A DNA stretch of 64,000 nt from Fidelibacterota bacterium (GTDB taxonomy: Bacteria > Fidelibacterota > UBA8477 > JABMPR01): the NCBI GenBank assembly GCA_018650795.1, contig JABIFG010000082.1:1-64000 (forward strand), written 5' to 3'. The stretch's first letter is position 1; each line of letters opens with the position of its first letter. Shown one piece after another: positions 2,270 to 61,182 of the stretch. The notes under the pieces were generated by a model. It was given only the letters and a program-made list of their open reading frames with translations. It had not been told where the DNA came from and searched no databases. The translations under genes were made by a program, and so were the position numbers.

Positions 2270-4039
2270 ATGCATAATACAATGACAGATATGGGGAATC
2301 CGATCCTGGACCGTTTACCTGTCCACCTAAAACAATTTATCAAGCCGCAAATTTATAGTGATTATAGCGCCATCGATCAGGCAGTGTGGCGTTTTGTCAT
2401 GCGTATGAATGTTCGTCATCTCCAGAAAATCGCCCATCCCAGCTATCTTGATGGACTGACTAAGACAGGCATCTCAGTAGATAATATTCCTGATATGGAA
2501 ACCATGAATGAGGTGCTTACCAGAATTGGTTGGGCTGCTGTATCCGTGGATGGATTTATTCCACCGGCTGCCTTTATGGAATTTCAGGCTTATAATGTTC
2601 TTGTAATAGCTGCTGATATTCGCCAGATCGAACATATTGAATACACTCCGGCCCCTGATATTATTCATGAAAGCGCCGGTCATGCCCCTATCATCGCCAA
2701 CCCCGAATATGCTGAATATATCAGACGTTTTGGTGAAGTGGGCTCCAAGGCCATTGGTAGCGAAAAAGATCATCAACTCTATGAAGCTGTGAGACACCTC
2801 TCAATTATCAAGGAAGCTCCTGGAACCAGGCAGGAGGAACTGCTCATCGCCGAAAAACGCATTAGTGACCTTCAGTCGAATATGGGCGAACCCAGCGAGA
2901 TGGCTCTGATTCGCAATCTGCACTGGTGGACTGTTGAGTATGGATTGATTCAGGTTGGGGAAGCAATAAAAATTTACGGTGCTGGTTTGTTGTCCTCCAT
3001 TGGAGAAAGCGGTGCATGTCTGAGTGATCAGGTTGAAAAGCGCCCCTATACTCTTGAGGCAGCCTACCAGGATTTTGACATTACCAAGCCACAACCCCAT
3101 TTGTATATCACGCCTGATTTTGCTCATCTCAGCCTTGTTCTCGAGGAATTGGCCAATAAGATGGCGCTTCGGAAGGGCGATCTCGAAGGAGTTGAAAAGC
3201 TGGTTGTATCAAAACGACTCGGCACGATAGAATTAAGTACTGGATTGCAAATATCTGGTATTTATGATGAGGTTATTGCCATCGAAGGCAAACCAGCCTA
3301 TATCCGAACTGTGGGTGCTACTGCCCTTGCTTTGCGCGATCGAGAGCTGGTAGGACATGGCAAGGCCTATCATCATGAAGGATTCGGATCTCCTCTTGGT
3401 AAGCTAAAAGGTGTGAATCTCGCCATAGAAGACATGAGTCCCAGAGATCTTATGGCTTACGATATTTATGAAGGTAAAAAGACCTCAATCGAATTTGAGA
3501 GCGGTGTCCTGGTTCAAGGAGATGTGGTCACAGGTAAAAGAAATTTACAGGGAAAAATTGTTCTCATAAGTTTTGAGAATTGCACCGTTAGCCTGGGAGA
3601 TCGCATCTTATTCGCTCCTGAATGGGGTGTTTATGATATGGCAGTTGGCAAAGATGTCATTTCTGCCTATGCAGGTCCTGCAGATAATAAAAGTTTTGAT
3701 CAAATTATCCGAGTCCCTGCAGAAAAGACGATTCAAGTAGAGCAATCACAGAAAATGGAAGAATTGGAGCAGTTATATCAGCGAGTGAGAGAAACTCGGG
3801 AAGATAGCATCTCTACCGATCTTAAGGATATTTTTACCAAGCTTAAGAAGGATCATCCTGAAGATTGGCTGCTGGGATTGGAACTGTTGGAAATGTGTGA
3901 GCCTGGAAGTGAACTATCACATACCCTGAAGACCTATCTGGATCAACAGGGGCAAAGGTCTCCACACATTAAACATTTAATCGAATTTGGAATGAAGCAT
4001 CTTATGCATGATGCTTCGTATGAACAAAGAGGGCAATGA
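2270..4039 (+). CDS. Aromatic amino acid hydroxylase, long form (phenylalanine 4-monooxygenase)
   Basis: This protein should hydroxylate phenylalanine to tyrosine with O2 and a pterin cofactor, the entry step of the operon. The 2-His-1-Glu iron triad is visible: His133 and His138 in HESAGHAP, and Glu223 in HWWTVEYGL. The protein is 589 residues, about twice the compact 260-300-residue proteobacterial enzyme. The catalytic domain ends near residue 330, and the remaining part is a C-terminal extension whose last ~80 residues are acidic and helical. Long forms are known in Bacillus and some other bacteria, so this is a recognised variant. AGGGAG precedes the ATG at 2270; ATG 2282 is an in-frame alternative. 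The TGA is one base before the next start, indicating translational coupling. Tyrosine or tryptophan hydroxylation is not excluded, but the context favours phenylalanine. Confidence 0.9.
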   Translation: MHNTMTDMGNPILDRLPVHLKQFIKPQIYSDYSAIDQAVWRFVMRMNVRHLQKIAHPSYLDGLTKTGISVDNIPDMETMNEVLTRIGWAAVSVDGFIPPAAFMEFQAYNVLVIAADIRQIEHIEYTPAPDIIHESAGHAPIIANPEYAEYIRRFGEVGSKAIGSEKDHQLYEAVRHLSIIKEAPGTRQEELLIAEKRISDLQSNMGEPSEMALIRNLHWWTVEYGLIQVGEAIKIYGAGLLSSIGESGACLSDQVEKRPYTLEAAYQDFDITKPQPHLYITPDFAHLSLVLEELANKMALRKGDLEGVEKLVVSKRLGTIELSTGLQISGIYDEVIAIEGKPAYIRTVGATALALRDRELVGHGKAYHHEGFGSPLGKLKGVNLAIEDMSPRDLMAYDIYEGKKTSIEFESGVLVQGDVVTGKRNLQGKIVLISFENCTVSLGDRILFAPEWGVYDMAVGKDVISAYAGPADNKSFDQIIRVPAEKTIQVEQSQKMEELEQLYQRVRETREDSISTDLKDIFTKLKKDHPEDWLLGLELLEMCEPGSELSHTLKTYLDQQGQRSPHIKHLIEFGMKHLMHDASYEQRGQ

Positions 4040-4040
4040 A

Positions 4041-5144
4041 ATGTCTGATTCATTAGGAATCCGTAAATATGATTATGTCGAGTTTTATGTAGGCTCGGCC
4101 AAAATGGTGGCCTACTGGTATGCCAAGGCCTTAGGTCTGAAAATTGAGGGCTACTCCGGACCTGAAACGGGTCGTCGAGACAGAATTTCCTACTATCTCA
4201 CCCAGAACAACTTGAAAATTGTGATTACTGGAAGTCTGCAGCCTAGTACAGTAGATGTGTCGAATTTTATTAATCTACATGGTGATGGACTGAAAAGATG
4301 GGCCATCGAAGTGGATGATGTAGAGAAAATATTTGATCATGCTGTCGAACAGGGTGCCGTCATTCAAAGACGTCCCAAAAGAATTGAAAATGAACATGGC
4401 TACATTACTGAAGCGGCTATCCGTTTGTATGATGATACTGAATTGGTCTACATCAATCGAGATAACTATAAACATATATTCCAGCCTGGTTTTGATCATC
4501 CAATTCAAGATATAAATCTGGAAACAGGTGATGCAGGCTTGATAGGTATCGATCACATTGTGGGTAATGTTCGAGAAAATGAGATGGACAAATGGGCAGA
4601 CTATTATGTTCGTACCATGAATTTTGAAACCTTTATTGATTTTAAAAAGGGAGATATTGGTACAAAATATTCTGCTCTTTTATCAAAGGTGGTGCGTTCA
4701 GAAAAATCCACGATCAAAAACCCCATTAATGAGCCCTATGAAGGGGAAAAGAAATCCCAGATTGAAGAATACATCGAACAATATCACGGAACGGGAGTCC
4801 AGCATATCGCCATTCAAACCGGTGATATTATTCACACAATTAGCACTTTGAGAGAGAATGGCGTGGAATTTCTCAATGTACCGGATACCTATTATGACAG
4901 CTTGAGAGCGAGAGATGACATCAACATTAAAGAGAATATTGATGAACTCCAAGAACTTAAAATTCTCTGTGATAATGAGTCAGGTGGGTATTTGCTCCAG
5001 TTATTCACCAAACCCATCGGGGATAGACCCACATTCTTCTTTGAGTTTATCCAGCGGGCTGGTGCTCAGGGATTTGGGAAGGGAAATTTTCAAGCCTTAT
5101 TTGAGGCCATTGAAGAAGACCAGGGTTTAAGAGGAAATCTATAG
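4041..5144 (+). CDS. hppD: 4-hydroxyphenylpyruvate dioxygenase
   Basis: Converts 4-hydroxyphenylpyruvate to homogentisate using Fe(II) and O2. The protein has the two-barrel vicinal-oxygen-chelate layout. Predicted iron ligands, counted from the ATG at 4041, are His172 (GIDHIVGN), His255 (VQHIAIQ) and Glu335 (FFFEFIQR). The C-terminal GFGKGNFQALFEAIE motif is diagnostic for the family. Length (367 residues) is normal. The frame stays open upstream to 4008, but AAAGAGGG just before 4041 and the one-base gap after the hydroxylase stop make 4041 the better start. Second enzyme of the operon. Confidence 0.95.
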   Translation: MSDSLGIRKYDYVEFYVGSAKMVAYWYAKALGLKIEGYSGPETGRRDRISYYLTQNNLKIVITGSLQPSTVDVSNFINLHGDGLKRWAIEVDDVEKIFDHAVEQGAVIQRRPKRIENEHGYITEAAIRLYDDTELVYINRDNYKHIFQPGFDHPIQDINLETGDAGLIGIDHIVGNVRENEMDKWADYYVRTMNFETFIDFKKGDIGTKYSALLSKVVRSEKSTIKNPINEPYEGEKKSQIEEYIEQYHGTGVQHIAIQTGDIIHTISTLRENGVEFLNVPDTYYDSLRARDDINIKENIDELQELKILCDNESGGYLLQLFTKPIGDRPTFFFEFIQRAGAQGFGKGNFQALFEAIEEDQGLRGNL

Positions 5145-5194
5145 TCATATTGTTTTGCAGAACGTTGATAATCAAGGAATAGAGGGAGTGGGGT

Positions 5195-6352
5195 ATGCCA
5201 TTTTACCATAAGCTGGGTGAGATCCCCAGGGTCAAACACACCACATTTTACAAAATAGATGGGAAAGAGTTGTACCGGGAAGAGTTGGTGTCCAGCAAGG
5301 GTTTCTCTGGTATATACTCGAACCTCTATCATCATCATCTTCCATCAGCAACACGAGAAATAAAAAAAATAGTTATAGAGGGTTCTAAAACCCTGGATGA
5401 TGCCCCCGCAGTTTATACTCATTGTGATACTGATAAAGACCCGCGTGGTGGCGACTATATCCATAGCCGGGAAAAATTATTGGAGAACAGCCAGTGTTCA
5501 ATCTCAACAGCCAAAGTCACCCAGAATTCTGAAATATTTTATCGAAATGCCAGGGCTGCAGAGCTGATTTTTGTTCATCATGGCTCAGGAGTACTAAAAA
5601 GCTCCTATGGTGCGAATCCATTTGGTTCCGGCGACCAGATTGTCATTCCCAAGGGTACGATCTATTCCATGGAATTCGAAGATTTTGATAACAATAAACT
5701 GTTAATTGTCGAGTCCAGCTCAGCTTTTGAGATCCCAAAGCATTTCCGCAACGAATATGGACAATTAAACGAGGACGCTCCCTATTGTGAAAGAGACTTT
5801 AGACCACCAGAGTTTATGGAGCCCATCAATGAAAGTGGTGAGTTCAAGCTTATCGTAAAAATGGACGCTCAGTACTCAGAACATATTCTCCCAAATCATC
5901 CCTTTGATGTAGTTGGCTGGGACGGATATCTCTATCCCTTCATATTCAACATCAAAGATTATCACCCCAAAGTGGGACGCATTCATTTGCCACCACCAGT
6001 TCACTTACTTTATACAACCAATGCGTTTGTTTTATGTAATTTTGTCCCGCGGCCATTTGATTTTCATGAAGCGGCAATTCCAGCACCATATTTCCATAAC
6101 AATGTGGATAGCGATGAAGTGCTTTACTATCTGGATGGGGATTTTATGTCACGTAAGGGCGTTAGCGCAGGTTCCCTGACCTGGCATCCTGGCGGTATTC
6201 CCCATGGTCCACAACCAGGAAGAACTGAAGCATCAGTTGGTGTAGAGCGAACGGATGAATACGCATTTATGATCGATACATTTGAGCCTCTCAAACCCAC
6301 TAAGAAGGTTCAGGAATGCCAGGACGATAATTATCCAAAATCATGGTTATAA
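5195..6352 (+). CDS. hmgA: Homogentisate 1,2-dioxygenase
   Basis: Opens the ring of homogentisate to give maleylacetoacetate, the third oxygenase of the pathway. The 385-residue protein is a cupin-fold iron enzyme of the shorter bacterial type. The C-terminal half carries the expected ligand region PYFHNNVDSDEVLYY (His about 301, Glu about 307), with a further His near 337 in GIPHGPQPG. An arginine/histidine-rich N-terminus (YHHHLPSATREI) is also seen. GAGGGAGTGGGG before ATG 5195 is a strong ribosome site. It is separated from hppD by 50 bp and followed after 6 bp by the aminotransferase, so it is well inside the operon. Confidence 0.92.
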   Translation: MPFYHKLGEIPRVKHTTFYKIDGKELYREELVSSKGFSGIYSNLYHHHLPSATREIKKIVIEGSKTLDDAPAVYTHCDTDKDPRGGDYIHSREKLLENSQCSISTAKVTQNSEIFYRNARAAELIFVHHGSGVLKSSYGANPFGSGDQIVIPKGTIYSMEFEDFDNNKLLIVESSSAFEIPKHFRNEYGQLNEDAPYCERDFRPPEFMEPINESGEFKLIVKMDAQYSEHILPNHPFDVVGWDGYLYPFIFNIKDYHPKVGRIHLPPPVHLLYTTNAFVLCNFVPRPFDFHEAAIPAPYFHNNVDSDEVLYYLDGDFMSRKGVSAGSLTWHPGGIPHGPQPGRTEASVGVERTDEYAFMIDTFEPLKPTKKVQECQDDNYPKSWL

Positions 6353-6358
6353 ACAGAT

Positions 6359-7468
6359 ATGATTAAAATACCACGCTTTGTCGAACAATTGATTCCCTAT
6401 AAAGCAGGGAAGCCCATTTCTGAATTAGCCAGAGAGAAGAATCTGACTCGTATTGTGAAACTGGCTTCAGCTGAGAATCCGCTGGGGTCAAGCCCCAAGG
6501 CGCTTAAGGCGATTGAAGAAGCCCTCTCAGGTCTGAATCGATATTCCGATCCAGCCTCCTATGATCTGGTGCAAGCTATCGCTGCGAAGTATTCAGTTCA
6601 ACCCAATCACATTATCTGCGGTCACGGCACAGATTCTCTTTTGGCTTACATCGTCTCCGCATTTACAGAAGAAAGTGATGAGATCATTACCTGCGAGGGT
6701 ACCTTTATCGGCATCTATGTATCCATCAGCAAAACCGGGCGAAAACTTATCAAATTGCCGCTCAAGGATTATGGTTTTGATCTCGAAGCCCTCCAGGGAG
6801 CAATCAACGAGAAAACCAGTATGATCTATCTGGCCAACCCCAATAATCCTACTGGCACCATGTTTTCAAGTAAGGAATTTGAAGCTTTTATGGCTCAAGT
6901 TCCAGACCATATCATGGTGATTCTCGACGAAGCCTATACGGACTATGCCAGTGAATTTGATGACTATCCCAATGGCGTCAGGTACGATTATGAGAATCTG
7001 GTGATCACTCGGACTCTTTCTAAAGCTCAAGGCCTGGCAGGCTTACGTATTGGCTTTGCAGTGGGGCCTGACAAAGTTATTGAAGCGCTCTATAAGGTTA
7101 AACTGCCCTTTGAGCCAAATCTACTGGCCCAGCAGGCTGGAATTGCAGCCCTCGACGATGTTGAATTTCTCCAAAAGACCATTGATCTGAATCGACGGTC
7201 ATTAAACATGCTGAAAGAGAACTTTGACCGTATTGGTATTCCTCAAGTCAAAACCCACACCAATTTTATATTAACTCTAATGCCCACGAAATCCGATGCT
7301 GCTCTATTTGCCGAGGAATGCGCCAATCGTGGTTTGATTGTACGTCATGTGGATAAATTCGGTGTGCCTAATGGAATCAGGGTAAATTCTGGGACTATGG
7401 ATGAAACGGAGTTTGCTGTCAACGTTATGGAAGAAGTCTATCAAATGATTATGAGTAAAGGGGAGTAG
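6359..7468 (+). CDS. HisC-type class I/II aminotransferase, probable tyrosine/phenylalanine aminotransferase
   Basis: A PLP-dependent fold-type I aminotransferase of the histidinol-phosphate aminotransferase family, 369 residues. The PLP lysine is Lys222 in RTLSKAQGLAGLRIGF. Other conserved stretches are the N-terminal AENPLGSSPKA, the NPNNPTGT loop near residue 160 and the DEAYTDYA motif near 195. HisC-family enzymes often transaminate aromatic amino acids. The position between homogentisate dioxygenase and fumarylacetoacetase genes, with no histidine biosynthesis genes near, suggests that the job here is tyrosine to 4-hydroxyphenylpyruvate. This substrate call is inferred from context. A role in histidine synthesis cannot be excluded without knowing whether another hisC exists in the genome. 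Confidence 0.85.
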   Translation: MIKIPRFVEQLIPYKAGKPISELAREKNLTRIVKLASAENPLGSSPKALKAIEEALSGLNRYSDPASYDLVQAIAAKYSVQPNHIICGHGTDSLLAYIVSAFTEESDEIITCEGTFIGIYVSISKTGRKLIKLPLKDYGFDLEALQGAINEKTSMIYLANPNNPTGTMFSSKEFEAFMAQVPDHIMVILDEAYTDYASEFDDYPNGVRYDYENLVITRTLSKAQGLAGLRIGFAVGPDKVIEALYKVKLPFEPNLLAQQAGIAALDDVEFLQKTIDLNRRSLNMLKENFDRIGIPQVKTHTNFILTLMPTKSDAALFAEECANRGLIVRHVDKFGVPNGIRVNSGTMDETEFAVNVMEEVYQMIMSKGE

Positions 7469-7473
7469 CAGAA

Positions 7474-8487
7474 TTGAAAATTGTTACATATAAATCAGGT
7501 GATTCGAGTCGAAGTGGACTCATGATCCGTGAGCAGATCTACGATATTCAAAAGGGTGGGGAGACCATCGGCGTTGAGTTGCCCTCAACAGTATTGGAAC
7601 TCCTTAACCTGGAAGAGCCAGGAATGGAGACACTCAAAACTCTGGATCAGCGGATCAAACGCGGTCTGGGAGTCTCGACGGTTAAAGATGCAGAGTTAAT
7701 AGCGCCCATTCCTAATCCCCCTTCATGTCGGGATGCCTATGCGTTTCGTCAACATGTCGCCACGGCTCGTCGTAATCGTGGGGTTCCCATGATACCCGAA
7801 TTTGATCAGTACCCCATTTTCTATTTCACAAACCATAACGCCATTTTCGGCGGTGGAGAAGTCCAGATTGAGGCAGATCATATTCATAAGCTGGATTTTG
7901 AGCTTGAAGTAGCCATCGTGATTGGCAAACGGGGAAAAAATATATCTTCCCAGGATGCTGACAACTATATCGCTGGATATACCATCATGAATGATCTGTC
8001 TGCCCGATTGCTACAAATGGAAGAGATGAAGCTCAACCTGGGACCCGCCAAAGGGAAAGACTTTGCCACCACAATTGGTCCCTGGTTGGTCACACCAGAT
8101 GAACTGGCAGAATTCAAAATTGAGAATGGTTTTGGAGTAACCTACTCCCTGGGAATGCAGGCATTCCACAATGGAACCCAGATCTCAGAAGGCAACATGA
8201 AGGATATGACCTGGACCTTTGCTGAAATCATTGAGCGGGCATCCTATGGGGTGGAGCTTTATCCAGGAGATGTGATTGGATCAGGCACGGTCGGCAGCGG
8301 ATGCTATCTGGAATTGAATGGAACTGCTGCACTGGAAGCTAAGGAGGCAGGTAAAGATTTTACGCCAACCTGGCTAGTGCCTGGAGATATGATGGAATTG
8401 CGTATTGATGGGCTGGGTGCATTAAGTAATACCATGGTAGCCAGTGGAGAGGATCACTCAATTCTGGCCATTAAGAAAATGGGCTAG
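7474..8487 (+). CDS. Fumarylacetoacetate hydrolase family protein
   Basis: Probable last enzyme of the pathway, cleaving fumarylacetoacetate to fumarate and acetoacetate. It is a 337-residue FAH-fold protein. The core HKLDFELEVAIVIGKRG contains the acidic metal ligands, followed by IAGYTIMNDLSAR and GPAKGKDFATTIGPWL, which are typical of FAH-superfamily hydrolases of this length. PGDVIGSGTVGSG forms the usual glycine-rich end of the active site. The start is a TTG at 7474, with AAAGGGGAG positioned just upstream over the end of the aminotransferase gene. Since FAH-like proteins also act as acylpyruvases or decarboxylases, the exact reaction is inferred from the operon. Confidence 0.88.
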   Translation: MKIVTYKSGDSSRSGLMIREQIYDIQKGGETIGVELPSTVLELLNLEEPGMETLKTLDQRIKRGLGVSTVKDAELIAPIPNPPSCRDAYAFRQHVATARRNRGVPMIPEFDQYPIFYFTNHNAIFGGGEVQIEADHIHKLDFELEVAIVIGKRGKNISSQDADNYIAGYTIMNDLSARLLQMEEMKLNLGPAKGKDFATTIGPWLVTPDELAEFKIENGFGVTYSLGMQAFHNGTQISEGNMKDMTWTFAEIIERASYGVELYPGDVIGSGTVGSGCYLELNGTAALEAKEAGKDFTPTWLVPGDMMELRIDGLGALSNTMVASGEDHSILAIKKMG

Positions 8488-8507
8488 CCAAACCGAGGGG
8501 AATGACT

Positions 8508-9458
8508 ATGGTAAGTTCAGAAGAAAAGGGATTCATCAGCATAGATCCTGATCAGAATCCACTCAAGGAAGTTCACAATCTCTTGCTTGGTGGAGTTAGT
8601 CCAAGACCCATTGCTCTGGTATCCACTATTTCTGAAGATGGCAATGACAACCTCGCACCTTTTTCATTCTTTAATGCCTTTGGGGCGAATCCTCCCTATG
8701 TCGCTTTCTCACCCGCATATAGTGGGAAAGATGGTTCAGCCAAAGACACCTTGCTAAATCTGGAGAAAGTACCGGAATGTGTGGTCCATGCAGTTCCCTT
8801 CGACCTATTGGATCAAGTGCTACTCTCATCAACAGCCTATAAACCAGAGCAGAGCGAGTTTATCAAAGCAGGTCTTGAGACACTTGATTCAGAGGTTGTC
8901 AAACCGAAGCGCGTTAAAAATTCACCCTTCCACATGGAATGTCAGGTCGAGCAGATTATTCCTCTGGGAGGCACAAATGGCTCTGGTAATCTGGTGCTAT
9001 GCAGAGTTGTGAGATTTCATGTCGCTGAAGCTGTGATGCAGGAAGGGAGAATCAACCCAGAGTTACTTGATCTCATCGGTCGAAATGGTTTCAATTATTA
9101 TACACGTGCATCGGGTACAGCCCTGTTTGAAGTTGATAAACCCACAGGACAGGGGCTTGGTATTGATCAATTACCTGCCCACATCAGGGATTCTGAAATT
9201 TTATCAGGAAATGATCTAGGGAAGTTGGGCCAATTAGAAACGATGCCTGATGAACAAGGGGTAAAGGAATTCATAGGCAATTTGAAAACAAGTGGGGTTG
9301 AGTTGAAGTATCATAATCTGTTTTTGCATGGATTGGATAGCGTAAACTCAAACCCAATACAGGCTAGGAAGGATATGGAGATCGCAGCGAAGGTGGCTCT
9401 TTCCGCAAACGATCCTGAGTTTGCCATCCATGCCTTATTATTTCTTGCTGATTTATAG
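8508..9458 (+). CDS. Flavin reductase-like (FMN-binding split barrel) protein
   Basis: The N-terminal ~200 residues match the flavoredoxin/flavin-reductase domain family: GGVSPRPIALVSTIS near residue 25-40, LAPFSFFNAFGANPPYVAFSP after it, and a later GRINPELLDLIGRNG. The remaining ~110 residues are helical and unassigned. The family binds FMN and has oxidoreductase or esterase-like members; the role here is unknown. It is the last gene of the aromatic operon, 14-20 bp after the FAH-family gene, and ends just before a strong hairpin. The ATG at 8502 sits one base after GAGGGG, which is too close, so the ATG at 8508 with 7-nt spacing is preferred. Confidence 0.8.
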   Translation: MVSSEEKGFISIDPDQNPLKEVHNLLLGGVSPRPIALVSTISEDGNDNLAPFSFFNAFGANPPYVAFSPAYSGKDGSAKDTLLNLEKVPECVVHAVPFDLLDQVLLSSTAYKPEQSEFIKAGLETLDSEVVKPKRVKNSPFHMECQVEQIIPLGGTNGSGNLVLCRVVRFHVAEAVMQEGRINPELLDLIGRNGFNYYTRASGTALFEVDKPTGQGLGIDQLPAHIRDSEILSGNDLGKLGQLETMPDEQGVKEFIGNLKTSGVELKYHNLFLHGLDSVNSNPIQARKDMEIAAKVALSANDPEFAIHALLFLADL

Positions 9459-9484: not shown

Positions 9485-9520
9485 AATAAAAACAGGCAGA
9501 TTATTCTGCCTGTTTTTATT
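9485..9520. terminator. Strong bidirectional rho-independent terminator
   Basis: A perfect 16-bp stem (arms 9485-9500 and 9505-9520) closes on a TTAT loop. The arms begin and end with A- and T-rich runs (AAAAACAGGCAGA / TCTGCCTGTTTTT), so it can act on both strands. It separates the aromatic operon from the convergent small gene. Confidence 0.9.
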
Positions 9521-33114: not shown

Positions 33115-33283
33115 CCCCCAGCTCATCCTCCTCACAGTTATTCCGATTAACCTCCTAATCATCGGGGGGTGAGGTAATGATGCAACCCTGAGAAACATCT
33201 TTGCAACCTCCTTGGTAGTCGCGTGCCGTCGGCTTTCGCTACCTTCTGTCAATCAATCGCAGAAAACCCATAAGGAGGGAAAG
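33115..33283 (+). other. Possible structured leader of the M28 peptidase gene
   Basis: This 169-nt gap contains GGTAG / CTACC arms (33214-33218 and 33239-33243) around an inner GCCG-TC-GGC stem. It also has two TGCAACC repeats (33181-33187 and 33202-33208) and G/C tracts that can pair. I could not match it to a known riboswitch class. It may simply be a 3' hairpin of the transporter gene plus the promoter of the next. Confidence 0.3.
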
Positions 33284-35899
33284 ATGAATCGAATGACACT
33301 GTTAATCTTATTTGTGGTCGGTCAGATCTGGGCTCAAAACAATACGCCTGTTATTACCAATCTCAACACACTTGTTGACAACCAAAATGGATTGGTGACC
33401 ATTAGTTACGATTTGTGGGATGATGAAGATGACGAGATGTCAGTCGCTCTGAAAATTTCAAATGATGATGGTCTTACTTACCTCTTTGCAGGTGATTCTG
33501 TATCTGGTGATGTGGGCTATCCAATTACCTCCGGCAATGACAAACAAATCCTATGGTATTATCAGACTGATCTCACCCGGACTTTCAGAGCCAAAATTGT
33601 AGCAGATGATTTTTACGAAATTGACATTGCAGATCTCGTTGCTGAAGTAGACAGTCTGAATTTATTTAATGATTTGACTCAAATAGAAGGGGTCAGACAC
33701 AGGACGAGTGGGATCGCCAAACTTGAAGAGACGAAGGCCTTAATCTCATCCAGGTTCGCAGAGTATAATTTACAGGAATCCAGACACGAATTCATGTATG
33801 GCGCCTATGAGGCGGTGAATCTTATTGGTAGAAAGTCTGGTCAGGCTGATGAAGAAATTGTCTACATCGTAGATGGACATTTTGATACCGTAATTGGTTC
33901 ACCAGGTGCTGACGACAATGGATCTGCTGTGGTTGGTATGTTGGAGGCCATACGGGTATTATCTGCCTACAATTTTAATCATACCATCAAGTTTATTGGT
34001 TTTGATCTGGAGGAGCCCTGGCCCCCAGGATTGATAGGAAGCAGTCGTTTTGTTTCTGAGGCTCTGCTACCCTATGAGCAAATTGAAGGTGTGTTTAATT
34101 TTGAAATGATTGGTTACGCCAGCGATGAGCCAGGTAGCCAAACTTTTCCAGAAGGCTTTGAACTTCTTTTCCCAGATATGGTTGATAGCTCCGCCGCGTA
34201 CGACCATCGAGGTGATTTTCTGTTCAATTTTGCCAATGAAAATTCAAACTTTCTGAAAAATGAATTTGACAACCACGCTGCTCTTTATGTTCCCGAATTT
34301 AGAGTGCTTTCAGGTTCTGTGACAGGAAATGGTGAAATAGCTCCCGATTTGAGGAGGAGTGATCATGCGCCTTTCTGGGATGCAGGATATCAAGCATTAT
34401 TTATAACTAATGGGGGGAACTTCAGAAACCCCAATTATCATACTGCAAACGATACGGTTGGCTCTCTTGATTTCAATTTCATGAGCAATGTGGTTAAAGC
34501 CACTGTGGCCACCGTGGCCGATCTTGCTGGCATCATGCATTGTGGCGTGTCTGAAAGTGAAAGCTTTGAGTTATCAGTGCATATAAACATTGTCCATGTC
34601 CCGGCGGATTCCTCGACGATTCAATCTGCAATCAACGGGGCTTGGGGGGGTGACACAATCTTGGTGGCAGCTGGAACCTATGTTGAGAACATCAATTTTA
34701 ACGGTAAAGATGTGGTTGTACGCTCGGTTGAAGGACGTGAAGTGACCATCATTGATGGTAATCAAAATGGGAGCACGGTTCTCATGATAGGCGGTGAAAC
34801 AGAAGCGGCAGTTCTGGATGGTTTCACCATCACCAACGGCAATGGCACTTTTCACAATGGAAATATTTATGGAGGAGGAATCATTGTCTCGGATAATTCA
34901 TCCCCAATCCTGAAAAACCTGATTATCAGCGGGAACTCAATACCTGATGACGAGATGAATGGTGGCGGGGGAATTAGCATTACTTACAATTCTCATCCCA
35001 CACTCAGTGATATAATTATCACAGATAATCAGTCCGGTTTTGCAGGTGGTGGTCTCTCAATGGGTTTTAACTCAAATCCTGTAATTGAATCAGTCACAAT
35101 CCATGGCAATTCGTCAGTATTATATGGTGGTGGCGTGATGCTCTTTGATCACTGTGCTCCCCTGTTTAACAACGTAACGGTTGCCAATAATAGTTGTGAC
35201 ACTGAAGCCGGCGGCGTTCAAATGTCACACGCCAACACCCCTGTATTCATAAACTCGGTTTTCTGGGGCAATAGTAGCTGGCAAATTGCCCAGGGAGGGG
35301 TCACAGCTTATTTACCAGACACGACTCACATTGCTTATTCAAATGTTCAGGATGGAGCTGATGATATTTGGCAGGGAGTAGGTCGAGTAAACTGGTTGGA
35401 AGGAAATCTGAGTTTAGATCCATTATTCAGTGAACCTCTTGCCGGTGATTTTACATTGCTCGAGACATCACCCTGCATAGACGCCGGTACCGAATTCTAC
35501 GTCTTGAACGGTGATACATTAGTAAACCTGAGTGCAGACGATTACCATGGCGTTGCCCCAGATATGGGTGCCTGGGAATATGTCCCAGCTGTGGCAACAA
35601 GTAATGCAAATCAACTGCCGATAGCATATTCTCTGGCACAAAATTATCCCAACCCTTTCAACCCATCTACAACGATCAATTATGAATTACCTGTCCAGTC
35701 AGAGGTGAGTATTGTCATCTATGACATCCTTGGACAGGAGGTCGCGACATTGGTTTCAGAAGTCCAAACTACTGGCTGCAAATCGATCATCTGGAATGGG
35801 ACCAACAAGTCAGGTAATCAGGTGAGTGCCGGAATGTATCTATACAAAATTCAAGCTGGTCATTTTTCTCAGACCCGGAAAATGCTTCTATTGAAATAG
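33284..35899 (+). CDS. Secreted M28 metallopeptidase fused to beta-helix and type IX sorting domain
   Basis: An 871-residue exported protein. The ATG at 33284 follows GGAGGG; an open frame extends upstream to 33212. Residues 1-18 are a signal peptide (ends WAQ). A small beta domain follows, then an M28 zinc aminopeptidase-like domain with GHFDTVIGSPGADDNGSA, FDLEEPWPPG, EMIGYASDE and RRSDHAPFWDAG plus NYHTANDT, which supply the expected metal and catalytic residues. Next is a right-handed beta-helix (from about residue 440: VPADSSTIQSAINGAWGGDTI), and the sorting domain ends QTRKMLLLK. The helix probably binds a carbohydrate or protein surface; the peptidase acts outside the cell. Confidence 0.88.
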   Translation: MNRMTLLILFVVGQIWAQNNTPVITNLNTLVDNQNGLVTISYDLWDDEDDEMSVALKISNDDGLTYLFAGDSVSGDVGYPITSGNDKQILWYYQTDLTRTFRAKIVADDFYEIDIADLVAEVDSLNLFNDLTQIEGVRHRTSGIAKLEETKALISSRFAEYNLQESRHEFMYGAYEAVNLIGRKSGQADEEIVYIVDGHFDTVIGSPGADDNGSAVVGMLEAIRVLSAYNFNHTIKFIGFDLEEPWPPGLIGSSRFVSEALLPYEQIEGVFNFEMIGYASDEPGSQTFPEGFELLFPDMVDSSAAYDHRGDFLFNFANENSNFLKNEFDNHAALYVPEFRVLSGSVTGNGEIAPDLRRSDHAPFWDAGYQALFITNGGNFRNPNYHTANDTVGSLDFNFMSNVVKATVATVADLAGIMHCGVSESESFELSVHINIVHVPADSSTIQSAINGAWGGDTILVAAGTYVENINFNGKDVVVRSVEGREVTIIDGNQNGSTVLMIGGETEAAVLDGFTITNGNGTFHNGNIYGGGIIVSDNSSPILKNLIISGNSIPDDEMNGGGGISITYNSHPTLSDIIITDNQSGFAGGGLSMGFNSNPVIESVTIHGNSSVLYGGGVMLFDHCAPLFNNVTVANNSCDTEAGGVQMSHANTPVFINSVFWGNSSWQIAQGGVTAYLPDTTHIAYSNVQDGADDIWQGVGRVNWLEGNLSLDPLFSEPLAGDFTLLETSPCIDAGTEFYVLNGDTLVNLSADDYHGVAPDMGAWEYVPAVATSNANQLPIAYSLAQNYPNPFNPSTTINYELPVQSEVSIVIYDILGQEVATLVSEVQTTGCKSIIWNGTNKSGNQVSAGMYLYKIQAGHFSQTRKMLLLK

Positions 35900-35920
35900 A
35901 GGGCTTGGGGGGAAACCAAA

Positions 35921-35966
35921 CGGTAGCCGGGCGACTCTGTCATCGATGGGTGCCCGGCTCCGATTT
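35921..35966 (+). terminator. Rho-independent terminator after the M28 peptidase gene
   Basis: CGG(T)AGCCGGGC and GCCCGGCTCCG form an 11-bp GC-rich stem with one bulge, followed by ATTTT, 22 bp after the stop. Confidence 0.75.
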
Positions 35967-36098
35967 TAGCTGAGATAATTTTTAGGGAAATAATTTGAAA
36001 TCTAAAAAAAATGCCAATGTAAAGATTTAGTAAAGATGTGCATTCTCCACACAGAATTAACTTTTACCAGTATTTAATGAAACCGAGGAGACATATCC

Positions 36099-39000
36099 AT
36101 GAAGCTGGAATGTTTTAAATCAAGCCTACTTATTGCAATCGTTTCAACACTTTTTGTTGGGTGCCCAACCATCCAGAGTTTGGAGCAACCAGATCTGGTT
36201 GCCACCAACAGCTCCTTTACATCAACCATCACTGTGACACTCGATTCAACATTGATTGAAAATGTTGTACCAAATTTTGCAGTTAAACTTCCCATCGGCT
36301 GGACCGTAATTGATTCAGTCCCATTTGATGGGAGTGTAAATGGCTTTTTCGTTTTTGATTCGATCATCACCGATAGCGTAAATGTACTTTGGCCCTGTGA
36401 TCCCGATGAATATTGGTGGGGAGCAAGAGCCGCCGACACAACGGATTACATTTATGCCGATACAGTGCATGTTACACCCTCAATGATCTCAGGCACCCAG
36501 TTCGGGTTTCATGAACTTACATACAGAGTTGGTGACGATAAACTCCGGGCTGGTGGAATGGGAGGAGAAATCCCTGGTTTTCTTAATATGGTAGTCTCAG
36601 AGACTATGTTTGTGACACCAGATCCAAGTCCCCTCGATGGGGAGGTTTACATAAGCCCTACGGGAGATTGGGGTACTGATGGGAGTGAGTCCGCACCCTT
36701 GAAGACCGTCCGGGAAGCCCTGGCTAGAATATCCGCAGATAGTCTGAATTCAGCCACTATACATCTGGCTGATGGTACCTACTCCCCCTCTACAAACGGT
36801 GAAATGTTTCCCCTTGAGTTGACCAGCTATATGACCATTGCGGGACAATCCCAGGATCAAGTGATATTAGATGCTGAGGGGTCAAGTCGTGTGATGAGTG
36901 TTGTCAATGCTCCTCACTGTTTCATTTCAAATATGACTATTACGGGAGGACTTATATTTCAAGGGAGCGGAGGAGGAATCTATGTGGCTTTTTCGGACCC
37001 GGAAATTTCAAGTGTAAGTATCACCGACAATTCGGCCAGATATGGAGCAGGCATCTATTGTGACAGCTCAGATGTGCTGCTAAGCGGCGTATCCATCACT
37101 GAAAATGTTCAAACAGGAGCAGAGTATATTGGTGCAGCGGGGATGTATAGCGTTCGCTCAAATCCCATTCTTCAAGATGTCACAATCAGTGACAATTCTG
37201 GTATTGGGATCTACCTGGAACGTTCCAGTGCTGTTCTGCAAAATGTAGATATTTTGCAGAACACAATGACTGGACTATGGTGTGCCGAATCGCATCCCAC
37301 TATCATAGATGTCTCAATCACTGGCAATTCTGGCATTGGGATCCGCTTAGAGGATTCCAGCCCATCTCTGCAAAATGTAAACATTATGAATAATGCGGAT
37401 GGTGGATTACGTTGTATTGAATCGGGCCCCACTCTAAATACTGTTAGAATATCTAGGAATAGTGCCTTCACTGGTGCCGGAATGCACTGCACTGCCTCTC
37501 AACCAATCCTGGAAAATGTCACTATATCTCATAATATTGCTACTGGGTTTGGGGGAGGGATATATTCATATCAAAATTCGTCAATCACCTTTTCCGGAGA
37601 GGAGAGGAGCAACATTTACTACAACGTTTCACTGAACCAACGTATTGGCTCAGACATCTTTACTACGAGTCCAATTGAGGTGATTGTTGATACATTTACA
37701 GTACTACAACCCAATGAGTATCATGCATCACCTCTGGCATATTTCACCTTTGATGTACTCAATTTTGTCTATGAACAGATCGATGCAGATTTTTATGTGT
37801 CACCTAGCGGTGATGATGCCAATGATGGTATGACGCCAGAAACACCCCTGAAGACCATTATGCACGCAGGTGAACGTATATTGGGAACGAGTGAACAACC
37901 ACGTACTATTTTCCTAGCGGATGGTGTTTACAGTCCCAGTAGCACGGGGGAATTTTTCCCGGTCTATTTACGGGCTCACATTTCACTGGTAGGCGAATCA
38001 GAATTAGGTGTCGTTCTGGATGGAGAGCTATCATCAAATGTAATCTCAATTGGTGATATGAATGATGAGCAGGTTTCAAATATGACAATTACTGGTGGGC
38101 AAGGACAGGGGATATTGTGTCAGAATTCAAGCCCAAGACTCAAGAATCTCACAATTCATGATAATTCTGGAACCGGGATACTCTGTGAAAGTTCTAATCC
38201 TCAAATGGAGCATCTCAATATTCATGATAATTCTGCCAGTGGACTAATTATTCGAGATCAATCACGACCAGAGATAAAACATGTAACAATCTCAGCTAAT
38301 CAGGGGGTTGGTATCGGAATTACGAATGGTTCGTCGGTGAGAATGGACAGTTTGGATATCAATGAGAATATCTCAAGTGGAATATTTTGCTCCTGGTCAG
38401 AGTTAATCCTCACCAATGCGAGTATCTTGAATAATGGAGCGGATGGCATAGCCTTAAATGCCTCCCCAAACTCCCTTTTGGATAGAGTAATTATAGCAGG
38501 CAATGCCGATCATGGAGTCAGCTGTGCAGAATCCAATCCAATCCTGACCTCAATAACCATAGCAGATAATGGTCGATATGGTCTTCGCATAGCCGGTTCT
38601 GCCCACCCAATGTTAACCAACTCGATTGCCTGGAATAATTCAAATGGAACAATTTCCTTTCTAGGGGTTGGTGACCCAGGTTCATTGTTAGTTGCGCATA
38701 GTGCTCTTGAAGGAGGTTCGCTCGGGGGAATATTTGATGGTGGTTATTATACCATCGATTGGTCAGAAGGGAATACCAACATTGATCCCCTGTTTGTCGA
38801 CCAAGAAAATGGAGACTATTCACTTCAGGAAGGATCCCCCTGTATTAATACAGGCACAAGCTTCTTTGTCTGGGCTGGAGATACCATTGTTAATATTCCT
38901 GATTCTACATATCAAGGTGGAGAAGTGGACATGGGTTGCTTTGAGTCGCCATATAGCACAGTATCCATCAGCTTGGAGCATCAATTACCCCTAAAGTTTT

Positions 39001-39269
39001 CTCTGGACCAGAACTACCCCAATCCCTTCAACCCAAGTACAACAATCAGGTATGAGCTGCCTCATCAATCGGATGTGCAGATCATTGTGTACGATGTTCT
39101 GGGTCAGATAGTAGCTACCCTGGTTTCAGAAAATCAGGCTGCGGGGTATGGGTCCGTTCAATGGGATGGTAAAGATAAGTTGGGTCACCAGGTGAGTACC
39201 GGGATGTTCCTATATGTAATCCATGCAGGAGAGTTCACCCAGACCAGAAAAATGCTGTTATTAAAATAA
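36099..39269 (+). CDS. Beta-helix (DUF1565-like) lipoprotein with type IX sorting domain
   Basis: A 1056-residue extracellular protein. The N-terminus (MKLECFKSSLLIAIVSTLFVGC) ends in a lipobox with Cys22. After a ~150-residue beta domain come two right-handed beta-helix modules, each beginning with a DUF1565-type motif (EVYISPTGDWGTDGSESAPL near 180 and DFYVSPSGDDANDG near 565) and continuing through many NS/NN-rich turns (for example ISDNSGIGIYLE, IHDNSGTGILCE). The last ~85 residues are the sorting domain (NYPNPFNPSTTIRYELP to RKMLLLK). It may be an adhesin or polysaccharide-binding or -cleaving protein; no catalytic Asp/Lys set can be named. A lipobox together with a type IX domain is unusual. 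Confidence 0.82.
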   Translation: MKLECFKSSLLIAIVSTLFVGCPTIQSLEQPDLVATNSSFTSTITVTLDSTLIENVVPNFAVKLPIGWTVIDSVPFDGSVNGFFVFDSIITDSVNVLWPCDPDEYWWGARAADTTDYIYADTVHVTPSMISGTQFGFHELTYRVGDDKLRAGGMGGEIPGFLNMVVSETMFVTPDPSPLDGEVYISPTGDWGTDGSESAPLKTVREALARISADSLNSATIHLADGTYSPSTNGEMFPLELTSYMTIAGQSQDQVILDAEGSSRVMSVVNAPHCFISNMTITGGLIFQGSGGGIYVAFSDPEISSVSITDNSARYGAGIYCDSSDVLLSGVSITENVQTGAEYIGAAGMYSVRSNPILQDVTISDNSGIGIYLERSSAVLQNVDILQNTMTGLWCAESHPTIIDVSITGNSGIGIRLEDSSPSLQNVNIMNNADGGLRCIESGPTLNTVRISRNSAFTGAGMHCTASQPILENVTISHNIATGFGGGIYSYQNSSITFSGEERSNIYYNVSLNQRIGSDIFTTSPIEVIVDTFTVLQPNEYHASPLAYFTFDVLNFVYEQIDADFYVSPSGDDANDGMTPETPLKTIMHAGERILGTSEQPRTIFLADGVYSPSSTGEFFPVYLRAHISLVGESELGVVLDGELSSNVISIGDMNDEQVSNMTITGGQGQGILCQNSSPRLKNLTIHDNSGTGILCESSNPQMEHLNIHDNSASGLIIRDQSRPEIKHVTISANQGVGIGITNGSSVRMDSLDINENISSGIFCSWSELILTNASILNNGADGIALNASPNSLLDRVIIAGNADHGVSCAESNPILTSITIADNGRYGLRIAGSAHPMLTNSIAWNNSNGTISFLGVGDPGSLLVAHSALEGGSLGGIFDGGYYTIDWSEGNTNIDPLFVDQENGDYSLQEGSPCINTGTSFFVWAGDTIVNIPDSTYQGGEVDMGCFESPYSTVSISLEHQLPLKFSLDQNYPNPFNPSTTIRYELPHQSDVQIIVYDVLGQIVATLVSENQAAGYGSVQWDGKDKLGHQVSTGMFLYVIHAGEFTQTRKMLLLK

Positions 39270-57023: not shown

Positions 57024-57279
57024 GGGAACTCCTGAAATTTATTGGGTTAATCAATGATATGTCTGTGGAAAGATTGCTATATTTAAAGATGCAAAGCACC
57101 TTACAAACTAAGATTTTACTTACCAAAATCAATCGCCATCAGAATTGTAAGAAGAAAACTCCCTCTACCCAACTAATGAATACAGGTGTATTAAATCCTG
57201 TTATGAAAGGTTTTAAATTGACTGATTTAAGACCATATTTCAGCCTTCATGTTTGAATCTGAAAAACAGGGAAGTTAAG

Positions 57280-58680
57280 TTGACTATATATATTGATGTA
57301 TTGTTCTGGATGCGTCAGAAGCGATGGTTCCTCTTTGCCATTGCATATGGTTTGGTCATGCATTTTGTAGTGACACCCCCAACTGACCTAAATCCCGCGG
57401 CTTTTGACGCCCTCATAATTATCTCAATGGCATTAATCTTAATAGTTACCGAGCCATTACCTCTCCCGGCAATAGCCATGTTTATGCTGTTTATGCAAGT
57501 AGTTTTGGGAATTGACACAGCCAATAATGTGGCATCGTCGTTTATGAATGATGCAGTGTTCTTTATTATGGGTTCTCTCATGCTAGCAGTGGCCATTGTG
57601 AGTCAGGGGCTGGACAAACGATTGGCCCTTGGGATCATCACTTTAACGGGACACAAAACATGGCGGATTATTGCTGGATTTACCACCATCTCAGCTATCC
57701 TGGCCTCCTTTATTGGAGAGCACACAGTCGCAGCCATGATGATGCCTGTTGGACTTACACTTGTTAGATATGCCCACAAAGATCCAAAGAAAGTAGCAGG
57801 ACTCACGGCAGCCCTGCTCTTCTCTATAGCTTATGGGGCCACCATCGGATCTATTGGAACACCTTCGGGAGGTGGACGCAATGTGATCATGATGAATTAC
57901 TGGGCTGAATTTGGGGATGGATCTGTGACCTATCTGGAATGGATAAAATATGTATATCCCATGGTGTTGATCCAAATACCATTCACCGTTCTCATTTTGT
58001 TATGGACATTTAAACCGGAGCATAGCAATCTGGATTCGGCGGTTCGAAAATTGGTAATTGATGTGGCTCATGCTGGTAAGATCAAGGGACGCGAATGGCT
58101 AGCCATTTTCCTGTTTGTTTTGGTTTTTCTCGGCTGGGTCTTTCTCAGTGAGGATTTTGGATTGGGGATTATCGCTCTCCTTGGTGTTTTCCTATATCTG
58201 GCCTTCGGACTGGTTGAATGGCAGGAGCTCAATCGGAAAACCAACTGGGGTGTCATTCTACTTTTTGGAGCTGCCATTTCCATCGGAATTCAAATGAATG
58301 AAACCGGTGCCGCGCAATGGATAGCCCAAGTGATCATAACCAATCTGGGGAGGGTTATCGATAGCCCCGCAGTCCTCCAGGGCAGCGTTTCAGTTCTCCT
58401 GACTGGCATCATGTCAAATATATTAAGTAGTTCGGCGACAGTGGCAGTTGTGGGTCCTATAGTACTTGATCTTGGAGGAGATAAAATTCTCATCGGATAT
58501 GCCACAGCCATTGCTTCAGCCTTTGGCTATTTCACTGCAGTAGCAGCTCCAGCCTGTACCATCATCTATTCCAGTGGGCTGGTAAAATCAAAAGACTTTC
58601 TACGAGCGGGTTGGAAAATGGGGGTTTTATCCCTTGTTAGCCTACTCGGTTTATCCTTAATATGGTGGCCATTATTATGA
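57280..58680 (+). CDS. SLC13/DASS family transporter, copy 1
   Basis: A 466-residue membrane protein with about 11-12 helices. DASS hallmarks: LPLPAIAM near residue 63, the re-entrant SNT-like region in ASFIGEHTVAAMMMPVGLT, GTPSGGGRNVIM, and the second SNT-like repeat NILSSSATVAVVGPIVL. It probably takes up dicarboxylates or related anions with sodium. The TTG at 57280 is preferred: AGGGAA is 8 nt upstream, and the N-terminus then aligns without gap with the copy 2 protein (MTIYIDVLFWMRQKRW against MHISADMLFWVQQKRW). The frame is open to 57253. Confidence 0.9.
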   Translation: MTIYIDVLFWMRQKRWFLFAIAYGLVMHFVVTPPTDLNPAAFDALIIISMALILIVTEPLPLPAIAMFMLFMQVVLGIDTANNVASSFMNDAVFFIMGSLMLAVAIVSQGLDKRLALGIITLTGHKTWRIIAGFTTISAILASFIGEHTVAAMMMPVGLTLVRYAHKDPKKVAGLTAALLFSIAYGATIGSIGTPSGGGRNVIMMNYWAEFGDGSVTYLEWIKYVYPMVLIQIPFTVLILLWTFKPEHSNLDSAVRKLVIDVAHAGKIKGREWLAIFLFVLVFLGWVFLSEDFGLGIIALLGVFLYLAFGLVEWQELNRKTNWGVILLFGAAISIGIQMNETGAAQWIAQVIITNLGRVIDSPAVLQGSVSVLLTGIMSNILSSSATVAVVGPIVLDLGGDKILIGYATAIASAFGYFTAVAAPACTIIYSSGLVKSKDFLRAGWKMGVLSLVSLLGLSLIWWPLL

Positions 58681-59597
58681 CAAAAAAGAAACCCTTATTC
58701 GATCCTAAATCACTCAAGTTTCTTACTGCAGTCAGTAGTGTAGAATATTCAAAACCAACATTGAAAATGGGTGCACTGATTGCCTCGGTCTTTGATGCCA
58801 GCCATGGTGTTGTATATGTTGGTGAGCGTGCCAGTGAGTTTCATGGCAGTTCAGTTAACCTGACTCGCACGAATCTGGACAACTGGAATATTATCCACCC
58901 TGGTCTTGAAGTCTTGGAATGGGCATTACAAGAATTGAAGAAATTGTCGCCTGAAAACAATGAGTTGGCTAAAATTCAGTTTAACCCTGATCATGTCTAT
59001 GAAGAAGATGGTCGTGTCCGAGTCATGCTGCCTGAAGAAAAAGGCTGCCGAATAGAGCTAGTTCTACGCGAAGGAGAACTGGTTGACCAATTGAGGAAGG
59101 AAATCCAACTGGAGAATTATGACCTTGCCATTATTGGTGGCAGTCAGAATAAACGACATCTTGCACATTCGCTCATCCAATACCTACCATCCTCTATATT
59201 TATACTTCAAAAATTTAATCCCAGGAAAAAATATAAACTATTACTTCTAGTCGATGATTCAATAGCTACAAACAAGTCCGTCGAGTGGGGAGCTTTGATT
59301 GCCGAAAAATTGGGATGGCCTGTACGCACGCTTACGGTTTCAAAAACCAAGCGTTTTGGAGCAGGGTATCAAGGAGCCGCAGATAAGGCGAAAGCATATT
59401 TTGATTCCAGAGGTATAGAAGTTGAACAATTTTTCCTCACGGGTGATCCAGTAAGAACTTTTGTAGATTTTGCAGGAGACAATCATTTCGTGATCATGGG
59501 TGCCTCTACTCTGAATCCGGTAAAGCAGCTCTTGTTTGGAAGTAAGCCTATCAAGACACTCGAACAAAGTGATGTCCCGATTCTGATCGTCCGATAG
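58677..59597 (+). CDS. Universal stress protein family protein
   Basis: A 306-residue cytoplasmic protein. The ATG at 58677 overlaps the transporter stop (ATGA); the open frame begins at 58662. The second half (from about residue 185) is a Usp domain: KLLLLVDDSIATNKSVEWG, then VIMGASTLNPVKQLLFGSKP near the C-terminus, the G-x2-G-x9-G(S/T)-like nucleotide-binding segment. The first half has a degenerate second Usp-like fold. Such tandem USPs are often encoded beside transporters and may gate them. It lies between two DASS genes. Confidence 0.85.
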   Translation: MTKKKPLFDPKSLKFLTAVSSVEYSKPTLKMGALIASVFDASHGVVYVGERASEFHGSSVNLTRTNLDNWNIIHPGLEVLEWALQELKKLSPENNELAKIQFNPDHVYEEDGRVRVMLPEEKGCRIELVLREGELVDQLRKEIQLENYDLAIIGGSQNKRHLAHSLIQYLPSSIFILQKFNPRKKYKLLLLVDDSIATNKSVEWGALIAEKLGWPVRTLTVSKTKRFGAGYQGAADKAKAYFDSRGIEVEQFFLTGDPVRTFVDFAGDNHFVIMGASTLNPVKQLLFGSKPIKTLEQSDVPILIVR

Positions 59598-59610
59598 CTA
59601 GACTTCTCCA

Positions 59611-61014: not shown

Positions 61015-61053
61015 ACAAGCTCCCTTCAAAAACATTAAAAAAATCATTTATGC

Positions 61054-61120: not shown

Positions 61121-61182
61121 ACGGCGGGGAGTTTCTAAAAACTGGTTTCGTTTATCCCATATAAATGCATTATCTTTCACCT

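Follow-up and report, generated by a model that had tools for sequence, protein, structure and literature searches.

Two unrelated protein families as candidate glutathione-free stand-ins for maleylacetoacetate isomerase in bacterial homogentisate catabolism

Homogentisate catabolism is a textbook pathway; the fate of its ring-fission product, maleylacetoacetate, was left open in bacteria that lack an isomerase of the glutathione S-transferase (GST) type, as stated for Bacillus anthracis (PMC4457819) and for Bacteroidales (PMC8674449). Here we consider an operon of this kind from a Fidelibacterota bacterium (GenBank assembly GCA_018650795.1). It is located at positions 2270-9458 of a stretch of 64,000 nucleotides (contig JABIFG010000082.1, positions 1 to 64,000), which as a whole is referred to below as the window. 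The operon encodes the enzymes of phenylalanine and tyrosine degradation, contains neither a GST-type gene nor maleylacetoacetate isomerase (MaiA), and ends with the gene of a flavin-reductase-family protein, hereafter FR. Comparison with the homogentisate loci of other bacteria suggests, at somewhat less than even chances, that FR and an unrelated protein family, denoted here X, are glutathione-free stand-ins for MaiA. The more specific claim that we are dealing with two unrelated, previously unrecognised glutathione-independent maleylacetoacetate isomerases, one a branch of the split-barrel proteins that bind flavin mononucleotide (FMN) and the other a new family, which, in eight phylum-level groups, take the place of MaiA and for the most part also of one another, is offered as a tentative proposal.

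The six genes form one compact operon, with intergenic gaps of 1, 50, 6, 5 and 14 bases, and their order and coordinates are as given in the initial annotation, which was made from the sequence alone and listed a hydroxylase, hppD, hmgA, a HisC-type aminotransferase, an FAH-family and a flavin-reductase-family gene in a row:

2270..4039, plus strand: two-domain aromatic amino acid (phenylalanine) hydroxylase (PAH), 589 amino acids (aa); NF010657/PRK14056 at 786 bits, cut-off 346; Biopterin_H, PF00351
4041..5144, plus strand: 4-hydroxyphenylpyruvate dioxygenase (HPPD), 367 aa from the ATG at 4041; TIGR01263 at 390 bits, cut-off 277
5195..6352, plus strand: divergent homogentisate 1,2-dioxygenase (HGD), 385 aa; TIGR01015 at 51 bits; HgmA_N/HgmA_C
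6359..7468, plus strand: HisC-type aminotransferase, 369 aa; TIGR01141 (hisC) at 292.5 bits, cut-off 276.55
7474..8487, plus strand: small FAH-family hydrolase, 337 aa, TTG start; PF01557 at 178 bits
8502..9458, plus strand: flavin-reductase-family protein FR, 318 aa; PF01613 at 66.5 bits, cut-off 27
9485..9520, plus strand: intrinsic-terminator-like hairpin at the operon end; its 15-bp arms pair perfectly, and the 3' arm is T-rich

The hydroxylase scores above the cut-off of the Bacillus-type aromatic amino acid hydroxylase model (NF010657), and the start and frame of HPPD were checked, a longer open reading frame (ORF) opening at 4008. Since the TIGR01015 score of HGD is only 51 bits, below the cut-off of 510.75, this protein is taken as divergent; its H301, E308 and H337, which we take to be the iron ligands, align with His, Glu and His of the HRNCMSEF and PHGPD segments of human HGD. 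The FAH-family hydrolase, too, stays under the cut-off of classical fumarylacetoacetase (TIGR01266; 76.5 vs 375.3 bits).

The lack of a GST-type isomerase in the operon, as claimed in the initial annotation, is borne out by family scans of the window proteins. No maiA came to light elsewhere in the same genome, and this possibility was rejected because the search for zeta-class GST/MaiA-like genes, run with GST_N (PF02798), gave 0 matches in the assembly, which is 91% complete, TIGR01262, the model of MaiA proper, having been applied neither to this genome nor to its phylum. In other bacteria, TIGR01262 was above its cut-off in 0 of 50 genomes with divergent HGD (two gave weak GST matches, one of them a cyanobacterium) and, at an E value of 0.001, matched in 0 of 198 Bacteroidota; the two sets share one genome, so that 247 were tested for MaiA. 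Among the 14 control genomes of both searches, 1 was above the cut-off and 3 responded. The same gap is on record for the homogentisate operon of B. anthracis, where no maleylacetoacetate isomerase was found and the later steps were called unclear (PMC4457819), and for a Bacteroidales bin without an isomerase gene, in which HGD, HPPD and fumarylacetoacetase are located next to the genes of a flavin reductase and of an isomerase/cyclase-like protein, all five being expressed (PMC8674449, 2021); in what we saw of the main text of PMC9007349, maleylacetoacetate is not mentioned. When eight Pseudomonadota loci were read out of 163 plasmid records with classical hmgA, maiA was seen beside hmgA/fahA in four, and FR and X in none of the eight.

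The distribution of FR follows that of HGD. In the phylum of the window, 149 genomes were drawn, the thresholds for presence being 40 bits for HGD and 100 bits for FR (HGD matches below 40 bits, in G019 and G032, were left out). FR was found in 51 of the 52 genomes with HGD as compared to 12 of the 97 others, and the HGD of the lone exception (G116) is cut at a contig end. Within the genus of the window, all 8 members with HGD carry FR vs none of the 11 without it. A sample of 198 Bacteroidota, from which HGD matches of about 19-26 bits and FR matches below 180 bits were left out, gave 97 of 112 vs 2 of 86; the Fisher p values for these tables ignore kinship. These numbers include 10 Bacteroidota with a classical-type hmgA, as typed by weak scores and long ORFs, 9 of which have FR.

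The linkage is physical as well. Of the 30 best-scoring loci of the phylum, the window among them, 29 have HGD, FAH or HPPD at a distance of no more than about 1.5 kb from FR, L019 being the exception. Divergent HGD is itself a wide family: a scan with the HGD alignment of the phylum yielded at least 579 confirmed stretches, from which 80 loci were kept. FR is found no farther than 10 kb from HGD in 32 of these 80 loci, which belong to Bacteroidota, Bacillota, Nitrospinota, Chloroflexota, Calditrichota and one unclassified bacterium, and 45 of the 50 genomes with divergent HGD carry FR at 290 bits or more somewhere in the genome. In 60 FR loci with short flanks (1.5 kb), the commonest neighbours were FAH (41), a CoA-synthetase-like gene (18) and HGD (16); the CoA-synthetase-like protein resembles acetyl/acetoacetyl-CoA synthetases and could use acetoacetate. 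FR stands beside both types of FAH, the small one and classical fahA. Beyond FAH, HGD, HPPD, PAH, aminotransferase and CoA-synthetase-like genes, no recurring pathway-like neighbour was seen in the 80 HGD loci (10 kb) or the 60 FR loci (1.5 kb); a conserved cyclase-like neighbour, as described in PMC8674449, was rejected on the same grounds. Taken together, there is strong support for FR belonging to the homogentisate pathway.

An Anaerolineae homogentisate cluster with FR includes, between FAH and HGD, an ORF of 293 aa (L093:9091-9969) with no Pfam or X match. The classical-type hmgA of some Bacteroidota (L180, L186, L187) has a conserved neighbourhood with at least four unidentified genes and no FAH match nearby. 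In an FR-less clade of Bacteroidota (L170-L177 and L184), HGD-HPPD lies beside a conserved gene set which, as we presume, resembles paaABCD.

X was first seen, unannotated, between HGD and classical fahA in a metagenome-assembled genome (MAG) of Chloroflexi that lacks FR, and it stands beside fahA on plasmids of Priestia, Streptomyces, Tsukamurella and Pseudonocardia. The X proteins have in common the motifs K-x-R-x-G-G, T-A-G-L-H-H and G-x-C-S (conservation was counted over at most 30 of 31 rows, L215 being left out) and show no match at the Pfam or NCBIfam cut-offs; the Chloroflexi protein has no match in PDB, and no DinB match was obtained for FR or X in the family scans. A single-sequence structure model of X, with a pLDDT of 41, was not used, and no X was found in viral contigs. 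Of the 26 full-scoring loci, 19 have X immediately before classical fahA, and a further one has it next to HPPD-HGD; the position directly before fahA recurs in five phyla. When the Priestia protein was used as the query against 72,556 plasmid records, 12 records were returned, all 12 with HGD and/or fahA adjoining, as established by coordinates or tblastn for the unannotated Nonomuraea and Kovacikia records and by feature names for four Priestia records; this query does not reach all X, as L192 and L193 carry it and are outside the 12. Among the plasmid loci with divergent HGD that were read, X was present in six of seven and FR in none of the seven. Two Bacteroidota without HGD also carry X beside fahA. 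Matches of 46-106 bits (seven loci in six genomes) were set aside as paralogs because they lack R191, C309 and, two rows excepted, H227 and H228. The paralog group L228-L234, found in FR-bearing Bacteroidota, is devoid of the Arg and the Cys, mostly also of the His-His pair, and does not lie beside fahA.

When X was searched for in genomes whose FR status had already been fixed, it turned out to occur mostly where FR is absent. Among the Bacteroidota with HGD, it is found in 14 of the 15 genomes without FR and, at full score, in 7 of the 97 genomes with FR; in the named set of 50 genomes, the respective numbers are three of five (the Chloroflexi MAG, which supplied one of the five X query rows, Herpetosiphon and a cyanobacterium) vs none of 45. 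Five of the seven FRs that coexist with X lack Gly162, a trait noticed post hoc. If FR is defined more strictly, likewise post hoc, by the presence of Gly162, X occurs in 2 of the 87 Bacteroidota with HGD and strict FR vs 19 of the 25 others; here 20 low-scoring or doubtful FRs were examined (that of G267 by score and place), 10 of which lack Gly162, and the other 77 FR-bearing genomes were assumed, unchecked, to keep it. On the HGD tree of 85 rows, the starred branches force at least seven changes of the FR-only label and at least five of the X-only label. One row with X (L033) is sister to a row with FR (L047; 99*), and another (L177) pairs with L248-L251, whose FRs lack Gly162 and may be paralogs.

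One Bacteroidetes MAG (L032) possesses an HPPD-HGD-aminotransferase-FAH operon but is devoid of both FR and X. Here FAH is followed downstream first by a CoA-synthetase-like gene and then by a DinB-family gene (L032:15465-15947), which may be a further solution, the DinB family including thiol-dependent isomerases. As this was the only case, thiol-dependent DinB enzymes were rejected as an explanation of general validity.

The initial annotation had left three options for the gap: an isomerase encoded elsewhere, spontaneous or glutathione-free isomerisation, or a new step taken on by the final protein. The first runs counter to the zero GST_N matches, and the third is favoured by the comparative evidence, since in different phyla the last gene goes along with homogentisate degradation and for the most part does not coexist with the fahA-adjacent gene X. 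Given that maiA, FR and X occupy the same place in the pathway and that FR and X mostly exclude each other, a shared task seems to be the simplest cause; and because the task of MaiA is to make the ring-fission product fit for FAH, we infer that FR and X act as isomerases. That both proteins take part in the pathway is strongly supported. The route could then be envisaged as follows. Phenylalanine would be hydroxylated to tyrosine by PAH and the latter transaminated by the HisC-type enzyme, whereupon HPPD and then HGD would yield maleylacetoacetate. FR, in place of MaiA, would turn the cis double bond of this compound into the trans form without glutathione, making it usable by the FAH-family hydrolase, so that the end products would be fumarate and acetoacetate. 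In other MaiA-less lineages, the same job would be done by X, an unrelated protein mostly encoded just upstream of fahA. As to the chemistry, one can imagine that a nucleophile of the enzyme adds reversibly to the double bond of the maleyl moiety and that rotation and elimination follow. In FR, the candidates for this nucleophile are Cys147, which is invariant, and reduced FMN; in X, the candidate is Cys309 together with His227/His228 (residue numbers of the L033 protein).

FR belongs to the PF01613 family both by its gathering score and by its split-barrel fold; this was its only Pfam match, none was found among the NCBIfam models, and it shows neither a GST fold nor a match to TIGR01262. The AlphaFold2 model (mean pLDDT 87) combines a split barrel of the FMN-binding type with a helical C-terminal extension, which is present in many pathway FRs, and its core is closest to 3bpk (Z 23.9, root-mean-square deviation 1.6 over 168 residues); the absence of a fold family from the list of structural matches was not taken as its exclusion. 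Gly162, which follows a shared Glu-Cys pair, is kept in the pathway FRs (27 of 27, 29 of 30 and 28 of 28), as compared to 9 of 19 short FRs and none of eight FR-family genes from other contexts. Cys147 was considered as a mark of an isomerase and rejected, being common to NbaA, 3bpk and 1eje; an analogy with gentisate degradation was rejected as well, no gentisate cluster having been seen in the eight contexts read out of 293 FR-family plasmid records. Some of these plasmid genes adjoin ring-cleaving dioxygenases, namely those of Priestia (L158:6001-6609), located near wrbA, and of Enterococcus (L165:5001-5621), and in Ensifer (L162:3133-4634; by annotation also on Sinorhizobium plasmids) an Asp/Glu racemase-family gene immediately precedes the one of the FR family.

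A number of observations weigh against the assignment of FR and X as isomerases. The nearest solved relatives of FR are FMN-binding proteins and reductases, NbaA included, which keeps alive the quinone-reductase and ene-reductase alternatives discussed below, and since Cys147 is shared with reductases, no residue marks FR as an isomerase. Seven Bacteroidota carry both FR and X; the arrangement in G220, G302 and G310, with FR beside HGD and X beside fahA, could mean that the two proteins have different jobs. Conversely, G166, G187 and G334 possess HGD and none of FR, X and MaiA above threshold, and under the strict definition of FR there are six HGD-bearing Bacteroidota with neither FR nor X. 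The independent-pair test on the HGD tree comprises only 6 supported pairs, with X changing opposite to FR in a mean of 3.3 of them and parallel to it in 0.0, and is not significant (median p 0.25). Furthermore, the part of PMC8674449 seen by us proposes another neighbour, the isomerase/cyclase-like protein, for the gap, and other low-molecular thiols might isomerise maleylacetoacetate non-enzymatically.

Five other explanations have to be weighed. As the main rival, FR might be an FMN-dependent quinone reductase which, at the expense of NAD(P)H, converts benzoquinone acetate, the air-oxidation product of homogentisate, back into the latter and would thereby protect the pathway, while isomerisation proceeds non-enzymatically or is performed by another protein. 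This agrees with the FMN-reductase fold (top structure matches of the FR model 3bpk, 1eje and 4z85), with a more distant family member having been solved with benzene-1,4-diol (3zod), and with the plasmid FR-family genes that adjoin ring-cleaving dioxygenases, once near wrbA. However, Gly162, which nearly all of the long pathway FRs examined possess, is missing from the latter genes, and we consider a quinone reductase unlikely because it leaves unexplained why X, a protein with no recognised domain, replaces FR where the latter is absent, and why FR is missing from the eight Pseudomonadota hmgA loci read. The flavoprotein fold would suit hydride transfer as well, so that FR could be viewed as an ene-reductase converting maleylacetoacetate into succinylacetoacetate, with subsequent cleavage to succinate and acetoacetate by the FAH-family enzyme; an isomerase would no longer be needed, and the window FAH is indeed not a classical fumarylacetoacetase. 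Yet FR occurs beside classical fahA, too, and X, its replacement, has no recognised reductase domain, which makes this alternative improbable.

The small type of the window FAH could also be taken to mean that no isomerase is involved, maleylacetoacetate being hydrolysed directly to maleate and acetoacetate, with FR in a side role. Earlier work, cited in PMC4457819, according to which some Bacillus have a maleylacetoacetate hydrolase, and the distant relationship of FAH to the maleylpyruvate hydrolase 6jvv (28.8 bits) point in this direction; still, FR is found beside classical fahA as well and X is linked to classical fahA, so the extra gene is independent of the small FAH, and we regard direct hydrolysis as quite improbable. 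We attach very little probability to a third protein being the isomerase and FR an accessory, even though the isomerase/cyclase-like protein could be of this kind, being encoded and expressed next to the flavin reductase, fumarylacetoacetase, HPPD and HGD according to PMC8674449: the window operon holds only six genes, and no further recurring pathway-like gene is seen beside FR in the 80 and 60 loci, the isomerase/cyclase-like sequence itself having been searched for neither there nor in the rest of this genome. Finally, FR and X could have unrelated accessory roles, their exclusion stemming from the shared ancestry of a few clades. The clustering of the labels on the HGD tree, the non-significant pair test and the coexistence of FR and X in 7 of 112 HGD-bearing Bacteroidota are compatible with such an origin; but FR/X switches recur on this tree, as the forced label changes and the L033/L047 sister pair indicate, and the placement of X directly before fahA in five phyla would be hard to reconcile with it, so that it, too, appears highly improbable.

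The initial annotation had also stressed that the usual tyrosine aminotransferase is replaced by a HisC-family protein. The family assignment stands; the oddness does not. Aminotransferases of the same family (30-69% identity) are encoded in the homogentisate operons of Bacillus/Cytobacillus and of a Calditrichota MAG, and a gene annotated hisC is present in those of Priestia, so that this half of the finding is ordinary. In its genome, the operon aminotransferase is the sole match above the hisC cut-off, followed by three lower-scoring matches, and hisD, which alone stood for the histidine genes, gave 0 matches in the 91%-complete assembly (13 of 14 control genomes were positive). A second hisC in a histidine operon, which the initial annotation had named together with a maiA gene elsewhere as what would make the case ordinary, was therefore rejected; the next hisC match (117 bits, L185) is an aminotransferase adjoining a Rho-like ORF, with Rho recognised by eye. 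Given the sole hisC above the cut-off and the failure to find hisD, the simplest reading is that the operon aminotransferase, which scores 154 bits with a putative phenylalanine aminotransferase (4r2n), probably serves tyrosine and phenylalanine in a host devoid of histidine synthesis, although a completeness of 91% is no proof.

As for the remainder of the window, the hairpin that closes the operon folds as RNA with -25.4 kcal/mol (z -8.9), and a pattern scan for terminators did not list it. Upstream of the operon, a deoxynucleoside kinase family gene (PF01712) is located at 310-957. An M28 peptidase and a right-handed beta-helix protein are encoded at 33212-39269, both with C-terminal FlgD_ig and Por_Secre_tail matches, the Por_Secre_tail match of the beta-helix protein being below the cut-off. 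At 57253-62301, two sodium:sulfate/citrate-type transporters are encoded close to a DAO-family oxidoreductase.

If FR and X indeed stand in for MaiA, the pathway could be annotated as complete in Bacteroidota, Actinomycetota, Cyanobacteriota, Chloroflexota and others, the X family, now annotated "hypothetical protein", would acquire a possible function, and a gene next to hmgA that is labelled "flavin reductase" should be interpreted with caution; in any case, FR and X are two concrete, testable candidate genes for the pathway gap. The link between a flavin reductase and a MaiA-less cluster is already in print for Bacteroidota (PMC8674449, as far as seen); the present comparison adds how widely FR is linked to such clusters, how its presence follows that of HGD and that it is exchanged for X. 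X or the FR/X exchange is not named in the literature found, including the accessible parts of PMC8674449, PMC4457819, PMC11012174 and PMC10950700, most subscription journals being outside the search. Thus, a bypass of the missing isomerase with two unrelated candidate enzymes in a known pathway appears to be new.

Among the known systems, mycothiol-dependent maleylpyruvate isomerases of the DinB family are a glutathione-free answer to the analogous step of the gentisate pathway; FR and X differ from them in having no DinB match. With the PF01613 flavin reductases, such as NbaA and the B. cereus protein 3bpk, FR shares the fold and the family motifs, whereas the pathway FRs are set apart by the retention of Gly162 and, in many cases, by the helical C-terminal extension. 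The Pseudomonadota operons (hppD-hmgA-fahA-maiA; compare L203) resemble the window in uniting PAH, HPPD, HGD and FAH-family genes; the window, however, lacks maiA and has a divergent HGD, a small FAH, the additional FR and a HisC-type aminotransferase. In B. anthracis (BAS0226-0228), HPPD, FAH and HGD are likewise linked and no maleylacetoacetate isomerase was found, while the window adds FR, PAH and the aminotransferase; the part of the report available to us mentions neither FR nor X for this organism (PMC4457819). The cassette of the Bacteroidales bin shares with the window the lack of a maleylacetoacetate isomerase and the flavin reductase beside HGD, HPPD and fumarylacetoacetase. Judging from the same portion of the paper, its authors point to the adjacent isomerase/cyclase-like protein, the function of which they call unclear, and propose neither FR for the isomerase step nor an FR/X exclusion (PMC8674449), whereas the window does without such a gene and has FR as the last gene of its operon.

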